A stretch of 64,000 nt of DNA from an uncultured Actinomycetes bacterium (GTDB lineage: Bacteria > Actinomycetota > Actinomycetes > S36-B12 > UBA10799). The position numbers were made by a program, and so were the translations under genes. The notes under the pieces are model-generated. The model made no database searches, was not told where the DNA came from, and worked only from the letters and a program-made list of their open reading frames with translations. Below are positions 55,257 through 62,476 of the stretch, one piece after another. The stretch lies in NCBI GenBank assembly GCA_946803585.1, contig CAMPEQ010000011.1, positions 620,001 through 684,000 of the forward strand, given 5' to 3'. Each line of letters opens with the position of its first letter. Within the stretch, counting starts at the first letter, position 1.

Positions 55257-57428
55257 ATGGCAAAACGTAACGGGAAGCGCACCGACTCGACGTTGTCGAC
55301 GTCTGCGCAGCCGGGCGTGGCGCCAGCCAAGCGCAAACGCTTCATCGACTACCCGCGGGCCAAACACACGGGAGTTCGCCGCTGGATCCCATCGTGGAAG
55401 CTCATTCTGGGCGGCTTCGTCACCTTCATCCTGGTCTTGGTCGGCAGCTTTGCTGCCGCCGTCGCGTTCACGACGATCCCGGAACCCAACGATGTCTCCC
55501 GTTCGGAAAAGACGATCGTCTATTGGAACGATGGCGAGTCTGAGCTCGGCCGTCTTGGGGAGTCGAACCGCATTAGCGTGCCGTTTGATGAGATGCCCGA
55601 GAGCCTGCGGTACGCGACTTTGGCGGCAGAGGATCGTGAGTTCTACAGTCACGGCGGATTCGACCCGATGGCGTTAGTCCGAGCAGGTTGGAATGACCTC
55701 AGTGGCGGCACCACACAAGGTGGTTCCACGATCACCCAGCAGTACGCGAAGAACGCCTTCCTCAGCCACGAGCAAACCCTCACTCGCAAGGCACGCGAAC
55801 TCCTGCTCTCGGTGAAGCTTGAGACAGAGGTGTCCAAGGATCAGATCCTGGAGAACTACCTCAACACGATCTACTTCGGTCGCGGTGCCTATGGCGTTGA
55901 AACTGCCGCGCAGGCTTACTTCGGGAAGTCAGCGGATGATCTGAATTTGAGCCAGTCAGCTGCCCTGGCGGCAATTATCCAGGCTCCGAGTGCCTACGAG
56001 CCGGAGACGAATGCCGAACAACTCGAGGCCCGGTTCAATTACGTCATCGACGGGATGCTCGAGCAGGGATGGATCACTAAGACTGAGGCCAACGAGGCCG
56101 CCTTCCCCAAGTTCAAGAAGGCTAAGACGGTCCGTAGCTCCCTCAAGGGAACAAACGGCTACCTGCTGGAGTCAGTGAACCGCGAGATGCTGCGCCGGGG
56201 TTACACCGAGGAGCAACTGACAGTCGGTGGCTACCGGATCACCACCACGTTTGACAAGAAGGACCAGGCGGCGGCGGTGGACGCGGTTGCCAACACGGGA
56301 ATCAGCGGCGAGAAAGGCCTACGGATCGGTCTGACGTCGGTAGAGAACGATACCGGTGAGGTACTCGCGATGTATGGCGGCGCGGATTACCTAGAAAACC
56401 AGCTGTCCAACAGCGACCAGGCGACCGGGCTCGCTGGCTCGACGTTCAAACCGTTCGCGTTGGCGGCGGCCCTGGAGGACGGTATTGAACTCGATTCCTA
56501 CTGGGATGGGAACTCGCCGCGGACGATTGATGGCTACACGCTGCAGAACGAAAGCAACGTCTCCTACGGAACGATCAACCTCCTAACGGCGATGGAGAAG
56601 TCGGTCAACACCGTGTTCGTCGAGTTGGCGAACGAGGTCGGACCGGAGAACGTCCGCGAGGCTGCAATCCGGGCAGGCGTACCGGCTGACACGATCGGGT
56701 TGGAAGCAGATCCGACAACCGTGCTCGGAACCGCCTCGCCCACGACGATGGATATGGCATCGGCCTACGCAACGTTTGCCAACCGAGGTGAGCATGTTGC
56801 TCCCACGACGATCAAGCAGATCAGCCGTGGTGGAGCGGTGGAGTACGAGCACACGGTGGAACGCGATCGTGCGTTCGACACGGAGATCGCCGATGAGGTC
56901 AACTATTCGCTGCAGCGGGTGGTGACCAGCGGTACCGGTTACGCCGCATCAGGGATTGGTCGACCCGCGGCCGGTAAGACCGGCACGACCGATAACAACC
57001 GATCCGCGTGGTTCGTCGGGTACACCCCGCAAGTCACCACAGCGGTCATGCTCGTAAAGCAGAACGGCAAAGGGGAGTCAACGACTCTGTACGGCACTGG
57101 TGGGGGTGGCTCCGTTCACGGTGGTGCCTACCCAGCACAGATCTGGACGAGCTACATGCGCGTCGCGATGAGTGGGTTGGACTACGAGGAGTTTGAGGAT
57201 CCGCCTAATCGCTACGGGTCGTCGTACAACTCCTACTCCAACGACTACCAACCGTCGCGTCCGTCGCAATCGCCTTCTTCGTCGTCCTCCTCGAGCCCGT
57301 CGAATTCACCATCGAGGGTGCCGTCGCAGTCGCCTTCGCCATCGTCGTCGGCATCATCAAGCGCGACTAGTCCGAACGATGCCGCTGCCGACAATGCGAC
57401 TCGTAGGCCCCAACCGGTACGTCCTTAG
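55257..57428 (+). CDS. ponA: Class A penicillin-binding protein (transglycosylase/transpeptidase)
   Basis: 723 residues. A basic cytosolic start and one membrane helix (about 47-70) precede the GT51 transglycosylase domain with catalytic Glu125 in AAEDREFYSHGG and QGGSTITQQYAKN. The transpeptidase domain has the SxxK box STFK (395-398), SVN (449-451) and KTGT (574-577). A Ser/Pro-rich disordered tail ends the chain after about residue 650. It polymerises and crosslinks peptidoglycan. It is the homologue of PonA1 (Rv0050). Confidence 0.96.
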   Translation: MAKRNGKRTDSTLSTSAQPGVAPAKRKRFIDYPRAKHTGVRRWIPSWKLILGGFVTFILVLVGSFAAAVAFTTIPEPNDVSRSEKTIVYWNDGESELGRLGESNRISVPFDEMPESLRYATLAAEDREFYSHGGFDPMALVRAGWNDLSGGTTQGGSTITQQYAKNAFLSHEQTLTRKARELLLSVKLETEVSKDQILENYLNTIYFGRGAYGVETAAQAYFGKSADDLNLSQSAALAAIIQAPSAYEPETNAEQLEARFNYVIDGMLEQGWITKTEANEAAFPKFKKAKTVRSSLKGTNGYLLESVNREMLRRGYTEEQLTVGGYRITTTFDKKDQAAAVDAVANTGISGEKGLRIGLTSVENDTGEVLAMYGGADYLENQLSNSDQATGLAGSTFKPFALAAALEDGIELDSYWDGNSPRTIDGYTLQNESNVSYGTINLLTAMEKSVNTVFVELANEVGPENVREAAIRAGVPADTIGLEADPTTVLGTASPTTMDMASAYATFANRGEHVAPTTIKQISRGGAVEYEHTVERDRAFDTEIADEVNYSLQRVVTSGTGYAASGIGRPAAGKTGTTDNNRSAWFVGYTPQVTTAVMLVKQNGKGESTTLYGTGGGGSVHGGAYPAQIWTSYMRVAMSGLDYEEFEDPPNRYGSSYNSYSNDYQPSRPSQSPSSSSSSSPSNSPSRVPSQSPSPSSSASSSATSPNDAAADNATRRPQPVRP

Positions 57429-57494: not shown

Positions 57495-60353
57495 TCAGTC
57501 CAGCGCCGAGATCTTTACCTTCTTGGGTTCACCGGAACCCTTGGCGCAGAAGCCAAACACCGAGGTCGTCTGACCTGGGTTGATCGTCACGCCCCAGGAC
57601 GGCGGGGTCACGATCACCTTTCGCTTCTTCGTTTTGACGGTGCCATTCCAGGTGTCCGTGAGCTTCGTGTTCTTTGGGAGTTTGAACTTCAGTTTCCAGT
57701 TCGACGACGCGGTTCCACCGCTGTTGGTGAACTGTCCCGTTCGACAGAAACCGCTTCCCCACGTCGAGTCCTTACTGAAGGTCACCGAGAGGTTCGCTGG
57801 GCCCGCCGGGGGCGGGGGCGTTGGCGTTGGCGTTGGGTCGGGTGTCGGATTGGGCGGATCGGTCGGGTGCGGCGTTGGCGTCGGATCTGGCGTCTCGCTC
57901 GGGGTCGGCGTCGGGTCAGGCGTATCGCTCGGCGTCGGGGTAGGCGTCGGTGTAGGTGACGGGGTCTCGCCACCAAAGTCGATCGCCTCCCGATTAATCA
58001 GCGCCGTGAGCACCGCCATCTTGTCTGGGTGCACGTTCGTCCAGTCGTCTTGCAGAACGCCGCCGGTATCCCCGGAATTCGGATTCCACGACCAGTAGGT
58101 CCAGCTCATTCCATTCCCCGACAGGTAGTCGGCGAACTGGCGCAACCATCGGCCCTCGACCGTGTCTGTCCCGACCTGCTTGGCGCCGAACTCTCCAACC
58201 AGGATCGGGGCGATGTTCTCGTCGTGGATGTAGCCGAATCCGCTAGACCATCGATCGGTCAGGATCTCGCTCACGTTGGGCTGATCGAACCAGGGTTGTG
58301 CGTGCACGCCGGGGCCGTACTCGTGTGGAGAGTAGACAAGGCGGTCTTCGACACTCAATCGGACCGGGTTGTTGCGGACTCCCTCAAGGTTGCCACCCCA
58401 CCAGTGCCGATCGAGTTCCTGACCACCGTCGACCTGACCTTCGATGCCTTCAACGACGACCAGCAGATCGGGGTTCTTGGCCAGAACCGCGTTGCCGGCG
58501 CGCTCAGCGGCGAGGCGCCAATCGGTTGCGGTTCCCGATCCCCAAGTTGCGGCACCGTGCGGCTCGTTCTTGAGATCAACCGCAACGACATTCGGATTGT
58601 CGGCATAGCGTGTTGCGAGTTCTTCCCAGCGGGCGATCCACTGGGCCTCTGTGTAGCCGTCGCCATACCAAAGGTCTTGCTGGTGGCTATCGTCTTGTTG
58701 GGAGTGGTTGTCGAGCAGGATGAGGAGATCGTTGCGCGCTGCCTCATCGATGATGATGTCCATGGCTTGGGCAGGCGTCTTACCCTGCAGCTCAGCGTTC
58801 TTACCGCCACCGAAGGTGATTCCCGACGTGCTCGAGGAGTCCAAAGCTTCGAGGGAGAACGGCATCCGAATCGTGTTGAATCCGTTCGCGCGGATCTGCG
58901 CCAGCATTTCCTTGTAGTCGCGGTTCCACAGCCCATGCGGGACGTGGTTGGCAGTCTCGAAACCGAACCAGTTGACCCCCGCGAGCACGATCTCCACCCC
59001 GTTCGCGTCGACGATCTTGTTGCCATTCGTCGACAGTGGAAGTGCGATGTTTCCTGGGGTAGGAGCGGGAGTTGTCGGGTCGGGCGTTGGGCTGGCCGAG
59101 GTTGAGGTGGTTGGGGTTGGCGTCGCCGTCGGTGTCGGTGTCGGTGTGAGCGTTGGAGTCGGAGTCGGAGTTGGAGTGGGGGTTGCGGTTGGGGTCTCGC
59201 TCATGGATGGCATCGGCCCTGGCAGGCTGGTTCCTTCTTCGCCGGTCACCAGATCACGCCAGGTTACGCGCGGGGCGTAAGGCGGGGCGTCGCTTCCGAG
59301 TAGGCAGAATCCTGTGTCGCGGTACATCTGACCGGCGTCAACGTTGGCCCATTCCGGGTGCGCGAGGGTCACAAGGTCATCGGCTTGTGAAGGCGTGGCA
59401 TTCCAGTAACTACTCAAGACCGAACCGTCAGGAACACGGAAGCCAGTCGTATTGACCTTGACTCGATTCGAGCTCGCGTTATGAACGGCGATCGAACCGC
59501 ACCAACCGGTACCCCAACTGGAGTCCATCTCGATATGGGTCATGACCCCCGTCATGGGCATGGTCATCGTCGGAGTTGGGGTCGGTGCGGGAGTCGTGGG
59601 GGATGGCGTTGGCGTCGTGGCTGAACTAGTCGGGCTGGGGGTTGGCGATGTGGGTTCCGGTGTCGGGGTGACCTCGCCTTCTGCTCCGAGCACAACGTCA
59701 CTGCAGGAGTAGAAGGCCTCGGAGCTGTCGCTGCGTTGCCAGATTGTGTAGAGGATGTGCTGGCCGGTGCGCTCGGGCAGATTCATCCGGTATGTCGTAG
59801 TGGGAGCTGCAGGCATCGGCCCGGTCTCGTTGACGAGCTCGAGGTCGTCCCAGGCGAGCACCTTGTTCGGATCGAACCCCTGTTTGGTCAGGTAGGTGCG
59901 GTAGTACTTCGTTGGATGTGGGGCGGAGTTGGTCCACGAGACCGTGTACTTGCCATCATCATCGGGTCGGAAGTCGGTGGTCGGCCACTGAGAACTGCCC
60001 GCGTCCACACCGCTGAACGCCTGGTTCCCGCCGCTGCAAATTTGCCCATCCGGCACGATCGCCTCGCTGTTGGAGTTGGCCGCGAAGTCGTTATCGGACA
60101 TCCAGTCGTACATGGGGTAGCTGTTGGGCTCGTCCCAGAGGGTCTGGCACATCTCGTTATCGCTTGGCGAACCCCAACTCGCGGGGTGCAGGAAGTAGCA
60201 GGCGTAGAGGCGAGACGGTGGCGTATCGACGGATCCGTGGGCGGTCGCGGGCGCCGTGCCCAGGCTGACGAGGAGAGCGGCTGGGAGCAACGCGGCTATG
60301 AGCACAACGAGGATCCGGCGGGCAGTGGGGGCCAGTTGCAAGGAGTTCAACAT
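57495..60353 (-). CDS. Secreted LPMO (AA10)-CBM2-GH5-CBM2 polysaccharide-degrading enzyme
   Basis: 952 residues, one of the largest in the window. The signal peptide ends at ATA and the mature chain begins with His39, as required of an AA10 lytic polysaccharide monooxygenase. The second copper His146 is in APHPTKYY and the axial Phe214 in EAFYSCSD. After a Thr/Pro linker comes a CBM2-like domain (about 270-370) with WGTGWCGSI, a second linker, then a GH5 glycosidase (about 434-790) with acid/base Glu597 in LKNEPHG and nucleophile Glu721 in VGEFGA. A third Thr/Pro-Asp linker leads to a C-terminal CBM2 (855-952). Oxidative and hydrolytic cellulose or mannan attack in one chain is inferred. Confidence 0.92.
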
Positions 60354-61084: not shown

Positions 61085-62476
61085 CTAGTTATGCTGCACC
61101 GATCGAGTCACCGGGCCGACCCGATCAGGGGCCAAGTCAAGAACACCACCGCCGGGATCATCGCGGTCCTGCTCCCAACCGTCGGTCCGTACCGGATCAT
61201 GTTGCGGCTGGTAGATATCGCGAATCACCATGACGACGAAGTAGATCGTCGCCGCTAGATGAACCACGATTGCTGCCGCGTACCAGCCAGCAGGTAGGCC
61301 CTTGCTCCCGTCAGCGAACCCGGCCAGGTACCACCAGATCGCGAAGTAGTAGATGACTTCGCCGGCTTGCCAGATCAGGAAGTCGCGCCAGCGTGGACGC
61401 GCCATCACAGCAAGGGGGATCAGCCAAAGGACGTACTGCGGTGAGTACACCTTGTTGGTCAGCAGGAATGCCGCGATCACCAGAAATGCGACTTGGGCGA
61501 TTCGAGCTCGCTGGGCGGAAGTGAAGATAATGCCGGCAATCCCGACGCACAGCAGAGCAAAGAGCCCAGTCGCGACGATGTTCACTACGTCGGCGGGTAC
61601 TCCGGCGTTCATGGTTGTGAGAACAAGCCAGATCGATCCGAAGTCCTCGCCACGTTCTGAACTGAAGGTGTAGAACCGCGCCCAGCCTTCGAAGTTGATG
61701 AACATGAAGGGCACGTTGACGACCGCCCACGCGATGACGGTCGTGGCGAGGAGCCGTCCGAAGGCCGACAGTCGACCGGCGCGGATACACAGTAGGAGTA
61801 ACGGCCCGAGCAGCAGTAGCGGGTAGAACTTCGCGGCAGCAGCTAGCCCTAACGCCACCCCCGCCCACGCCGGGTACCTTCGCGCCCACAGCAGCATGAA
61901 CACCGAGGTCAAGGCAACAGCGAACAAGTCCCAGTTGATCGTCGCTGTCAGAATCACCCCTGGCGCCAAGGCGAACATCGCCGCATCCCACTTGCGTCGC
62001 TTCACGGTCATGGCCGTGGCGACGACCGCAACGATGAGGCAGATCAGCAGCATGATTGCGTTGACGTAGTAGAACCACACGGTCTCGTTGCCGCTGCTCG
62101 GTGTTATCCAGTTGGCAACGACCATGAACAACCCGGTGCCGACGGGGTACTCCAACTGCTCGGTTCCTGGCAGCGGGTCGCTGACGTAAGGGAAGACGTT
62201 GTCGGCGAACCCGCGCAAGCTGTAGAGCGGCGCAATATCGGTGTAGCAGGCGTGGGTGTAGCGGCCCGGATCAGCCCAGTTCGTGAGTGAACAGGGCAGC
62301 TTACTGATGAGGTTGAGCGCGAACGCGCCGATCGTGAACAGGACGATGATCGGCAGTGGTCCCCAGAATCGCCAGTTGCTGTAGGCATGGACTCCGAGGG
62401 GTCCGCCGATGACCTCTGAGCTATCAGCAATGACCGAATCCGAGCGGGTCGGTGCGGTGACTGTCGGTTCGTTCAC
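61085..62476 (-). CDS. GT87/DUF2029-type membrane glycosyltransferase
   Basis: 463 residues with 10-12 membrane helices. Features of the polyprenol-phosphate mannose-dependent GT-C family include LEYPVGTGLFMVVANWI, the first-loop acidic pair in YTDIAPLYSLRG, and WARRYPAWAGVALGLAAAAKFYPLLLLGPLLLL. It should add mannose to lipoglycans such as lipomannan. In mycobacteria the gene after ponA1 (Rv0051) is of this type. GTG start at 62476. Substrate unknown. Confidence 0.85.
   Translation of the reverse strand: MNEPTVTAPTRSDSVIADSSEVIGGPLGVHAYSNWRFWGPLPIIVLFTIGAFALNLISKLPCSLTNWADPGRYTHACYTDIAPLYSLRGFADNVFPYVSDPLPGTEQLEYPVGTGLFMVVANWITPSSGNETVWFYYVNAIMLLICLIVAVVATAMTVKRRKWDAAMFALAPGVILTATINWDLFAVALTSVFMLLWARRYPAWAGVALGLAAAAKFYPLLLLGPLLLLCIRAGRLSAFGRLLATTVIAWAVVNVPFMFINFEGWARFYTFSSERGEDFGSIWLVLTTMNAGVPADVVNIVATGLFALLCVGIAGIIFTSAQRARIAQVAFLVIAAFLLTNKVYSPQYVLWLIPLAVMARPRWRDFLIWQAGEVIYYFAIWWYLAGFADGSKGLPAGWYAAAIVVHLAATIYFVVMVIRDIYQPQHDPVRTDGWEQDRDDPGGGVLDLAPDRVGPVTRSVQHN

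Follow-up and report, generated by a model that had tools for sequence, protein, structure and literature searches.

A predicted bicatalytic AA10-GH5 enzyme with two CBM2 modules from an uncultured actinomycete, and its fused and unfused relatives

Introduction

Natural chains that join an LPMO to a hydrolase are tests of whether tethering brings a benefit, and few have been characterised. Among AA10 proteins such fusions are uncommon, as an earlier note on this DNA had stated: a catalytic domain was present in 7 of 1222 CBM33/AA10 entries, in one case a GH5 (PMC3492096), Book et al. (2014) counted two genes carrying a GH domain (PMC4144037), and an AA10 tree from 2023 includes some members with GH5 ("cellulases/mannanases") or GH18 domains (PMC10067821). 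A review of the same year knew of one characterised natural LPMO-hydrolase chain, and in the AA10-CBM5-GH18 protein JdLPMO10A (Jd1381) of Jonesia denitrificans, for which synergy has been measured, the intact chain outperforms the separate pieces and the synergy needs the covalent link (PMC10154629). Caldibacillus cellulovorans secretes ManA, a single modular protein with an N-terminal AA10 LPMO and a GH5 mannanase (PMC12897692, PMC13219152), whose AA10 domain is active if correctly processed (PMC12897692).

The protein described here is encoded in the window, by which we mean the whole 64,000-nucleotide stretch of DNA that was analysed, and it shares the bicatalytic LPMO-hydrolase plan with both of these enzymes. 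Where JdLPMO10A has a chitinase and a single CBM5, the window protein has a predicted cellulase and two CBM2 modules; it differs from ManA in that its GH5 resembles the E1 endoglucanase rather than a mannanase, in that its binding modules are CBM2, and in that its host is an actinomycete and not a member of the Bacillota. The binding module of ManA is a CBM3, and Forsberg et al. (2025, FEBS J) have reportedly studied the enzyme since the 2023 review. A fusion of AA10 with an E1-like endoglucanase did not turn up in a literature of which our coverage was partial and in which the absence of the string "AA10-CBM2-GH5" is weak evidence. The AA10-hydrolase design is known but rare, and the window protein appears to be a new variation on it; the novelty given to the oxidative-hydrolytic fusion in the earlier note was in this respect overstated, AA10 plus GH5 having already been described in ManA (PMC12897692, PMC13219152), although its rarity stands.

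Results

Architecture of the window protein

The gene is a 952-residue ORF at positions 57495..60353 on the minus strand, which the earlier note had left unstated, with an ATG start in the ORF reading of the window, and its product runs from a signal peptide through AA10 LPMO, CBM2 and GH5 to a second CBM2, as follows.

60240..60353, minus strand: predicted Sec-type signal peptide, residues 1-38, cleaved between ATA and H (hydrophobic core and AXA site before the conserved mature His)
59682..60239, minus strand: AA10 LPMO domain, residues 39-224, copper brace His39/His146 (PF03067, E 4e-47; PDB matches; residue table)
59550..59681, minus strand: Thr/Pro linker 1, residues 225-268 (sequence)
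59232..59549, minus strand: first CBM2, about residues 269-374, with Trp280, Trp317 and Trp335 (second PF00553 stretch; Trp positions)
59052..59231, minus strand: Thr/Pro linker 2, residues 375-434 (sequence)
57984..59051, minus strand: GH5 endoglucanase domain of E1-like sequence, residues 435-790, with Glu597 and Glu721 (PF00150, E 1.9e-52; PDB matches; residue set)
57804..57983, minus strand: Thr/Pro linker 3, residues 791-850 (sequence)
57498..57803, minus strand: C-terminal CBM2, residues 851-952, with Trp865, Trp902 and Trp920 (best PF00553 stretch; Trp positions)

The Pfam LPMO_10 profile covers residues 39-220 at 161.7 bits against a cut-off of 23, the Cellulase (GH5) profile covers residues 449-760, and CBM_2 matches two separate stretches, the better of them at 857-943. 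The Pfam matches and the ORF agree with the single polypeptide, its four domains and its Thr/Pro linkers as the earlier note had described them. The predicted signal peptide ends in ...APATA and is followed by HGSV, so that the mature chain would begin with His39; with His146 also in place, both of the copper ligands that had been claimed are there. Each CBM2 module has three tryptophans in addition to its profile match, and we take these trios, which sit where the binding face is expected, to be the surface Trp triad of CBM2a. This triad has a role in binding. Sequence evidence settles the fold of the protein. We regard it as a real, conserved bicatalytic enzyme, in which a single ORF encodes two intact catalytic domains.

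Conservation and neighbourhood

The same four-domain chain is encoded in a second genome of the genus (G003) and in one from another genus of the family (G007), with identities to the window protein of 81-82% in AA10 and 79-82% in GH5. Among these three chains AA10 has a dN/dS of 0.05-0.10 and GH5 one of 0.09-0.11, with higher values for the CBM2 modules, the ratios being rough as several dS values lie near saturation; both catalytic domains are clearly under purifying selection. A further member of the genus, G002, has a GH5 gene that is 71% identical, carries its own signal peptide and is without AA10, on a contig that ends there, and it has an AA10-CBM2-CBM2 protein as a separate gene. The adjoining ponA gene (55257-57428), in convergent orientation, had been singled out as an odd neighbour, but the adjacency is not conserved and carries little weight: no ponA lies in the 20 kb surrounding the G007 fusion. 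A GT87-type glycosyltransferase-like membrane protein (61085-62476) is encoded upstream of the window's fusion, on the same strand.

The GH5 domain

The best PDB matches of the GH5 domain are the endoglucanases 8fc0, 1vrx and 1ece, at ∼1e-97. The nearest type is the E1 endoglucanase of Acidothermus cellulolyticus (1ece), and all eight active-site residues checked (R496, H550, N596, E597, H677, Y679, E721 and W754) are identical in the window protein, in E1 and in 30 relatives; Glu597 and Glu721, named as catalytic in the earlier note, align with the catalytic pair of E1. By this residue set, the domain belongs with the E1-type endoglucanases, probably in subfamily 1. To our knowledge E1 has no LPMO domain, unlike the window protein. 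The window genome holds no second PF00150 protein besides the fusion protein.

The AA10 domain

In a residue table of window and reference rows, the second sphere of the window AA10 is Arg207-Asp209-Glu212-Phe214, spaced like Arg212-Asp214-Glu217-Phe219 in ScAA10C. Of the cellulose-active or mixed-active AA10s, 49% have this "REF" second sphere, as do some chitin-active AA10s (PMC11137697). Substrates are told apart by a surface pair, Phe-Trp for cellulose and Gln/Asn-Thr/Ser for chitin (PMC10067821, PMC9344471). At these positions the window has Met85/Ser143 in the table, the G003 and G007 chains have Met/Val and Met/Asn, respectively, and CbpD has Asn/Ser. Judged by its residues, Met85/Ser143 appears to be intermediate between the polar chitin pair and the Phe/Trp cellulose pair. 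In G036 an AA10 (L084:2771-3916; motifs FDWMEVN and WAPH) has Met/Trp at the positions of Met85/Ser143, nearer to the cellulose-type pair than the pairs of its neighbours.

The best PDB matches of the window AA10 are CbpD, ScLPMO10D and CjLPMO10A, followed by TfAA10A. The first three are chitin-active, and ScLPMO10D acts on chitin only (PMC10067821). Since the nearest solved AA10s are chitin-active, the two catalytic domains of the window protein may prefer different polymers. ScLPMO10D, CbpD and ScLPMO10C have the same His brace as the window AA10, and ScLPMO10D and ScLPMO10C share its Arg-Glu-Phe second sphere, but the surface pair of all three is unlike Met85/Ser143 and, according to their source papers, none is joined to a hydrolase, whereas the window AA10 is. 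The window genome has one other AA10, a CBP21-like AA10-Fn3-Fn3-CBM5/12 protein (L002:1408-2910) that is probably chitin-directed.

Fusions across the order and beyond

A survey of 166 genomes of the order found GH5 relatives in 35 and AA10 in 45, including five further AA10-GH5 fusions, of family f6 (G057, G058, G061, G069 and G042). The spacing within these varies, with a CBM2 between the catalytic domains in G057 and G058 and short linkers only in G061, G069 and G042; at the positions of window residues 85 and 143 they carry a polar Thr/Thr. G062 has an AA10-CBM2-CBM2 gene immediately ahead of a GH5 gene. Another five proteins are AA10-CBM2-CBM2-GH18 fusions (G030, G035, G066, G068 and G069), and their AA10s, at loci L071 to L075, fall on the same AA10 branch as that of the window. 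The G066 locus (L071:3438-10186) is a one-strand cluster of three genes encoding GH5-CBM2, AA10-CBM2-CBM2-GH18 and a second GH5-CBM2. Draft contigs end inside or beside these modular genes at L079, L072, L082 and L017, so that the fusion counts are lower bounds; the breaks are likely to come from the repetitive Thr/Pro linkers. A scan of genome contigs with just two peptide patterns, taken from a two-sequence alignment, returned one locus.

Trees of the separate domains, a check that the earlier note had proposed, both reject a single clade of the eight GH5-fused proteins (p-AU 0.001 for AA10 and 4e-6 for GH5). The five f6 fusions alone are likewise rejected as one clade (p-AU 0.008 and 0.007, respectively), and the three f1 fusions form one AA10 clade with support of 100/100. 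With a single fusion clade rejected in both domain trees, fusion, or splitting, recurred; AA10 and GH5 appear to have been joined (or split) more than once within the order, the trees alone being compatible with either direction.

Of 395 genomes sampled from the class, some of them members of the order and the whole no census, 71 have GH5 relatives, and at none of 18 loci inspected elsewhere in the class is there an AA10 within the 1.5-kb flanks of the GH5. The AA10 matches listed include one from G312 whose sequence, read by eye, also holds a CBM5-like module and a GH18-like domain. No plasmid record covered 80% of the query in a tblastn search, and the top rows matched the GH5 part only.

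Discussion

The domain identity and active-site residues of the window protein are plain, and we consider it probable that this is a secreted bicatalytic polysaccharide-degrading enzyme, in which AA10 oxidation is coupled to hydrolysis of β-1,4-glucan by a tethered GH5. The chain would be exported by the Sec route and cleaved before His39, whereupon the His39/His146 brace of the mature chain could take up copper. Both CBM2 modules would anchor the protein to a crystalline surface, presumably of cellulose as the shared substrate. There the AA10 would break surface chains by oxidation, most likely at C1, and close to these breaks the E1-like GH5 tethered to it would hydrolyse the loosened β-1,4-glucan, an arrangement that may give intramolecular synergy.

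That two genes were wrongly joined by annotation or assembly is scarcely credible: AA10 and GH5 are indeed separate neighbouring ORFs in G062, but here the ORF is uninterrupted, the same architecture recurs in three genomes of two genera, and the purifying selection on the joined-chain domains speaks against an artefact. A mannan-directed enzyme resembling C. cellulovorans ManA, whose plan is also AA10, CBM and GH5 (PMC12897692, PMC13219152), is very improbable, since the GH5 matches E1-type endoglucanases so closely and no mannanase is named among its PDB matches; the suggestion in the earlier note that mannan might be a target does not fare well for the same reason.

It is rather unlikely, to our mind, that the protein is a dual-substrate enzyme, in which a chitin-active or mixed LPMO and a GH5 β-glucanase would work together on a composite fungal or algal wall. 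CBM2 modules can also bind chitin, which we counted against the cellulose-directed reading. The top solved relatives of the AA10 are chitin-active, some AA10s of its type in the same order have a GH18 domain as fusion partner, the f6 GH5 fusions have their polar Thr85/Thr143 pair, and ScLPMO10D has the same Arg-Glu-Phe second sphere despite acting on chitin only (PMC10067821). However, the Met85/Ser143 pair appears to lie midway between the Asn/Ser of CbpD and the cellulose-type Phe/Trp, and chitin is probably already covered in the window genome by the CBP21-like AA10-Fn3-Fn3-CBM5 protein.

More tentatively, and with some doubt, we suggest that within one order AA10s have, on several independent occasions, acquired E1-like GH5 and GH18 partners, which would point to selection for tethered oxidative-hydrolytic enzymes, and that the surface of the window LPMO is shifting from the chitin-type to the cellulose-type pair. 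The order offers homologues of both kinds, fused and separate, in which the same GH5 can be compared with and without its LPMO, and LPMOs can be compared with different hydrolase partners. What interests us most in these data lay outside the earlier note: within a single order, AA10 appears to have been joined repeatedly to GH5 and to GH18.
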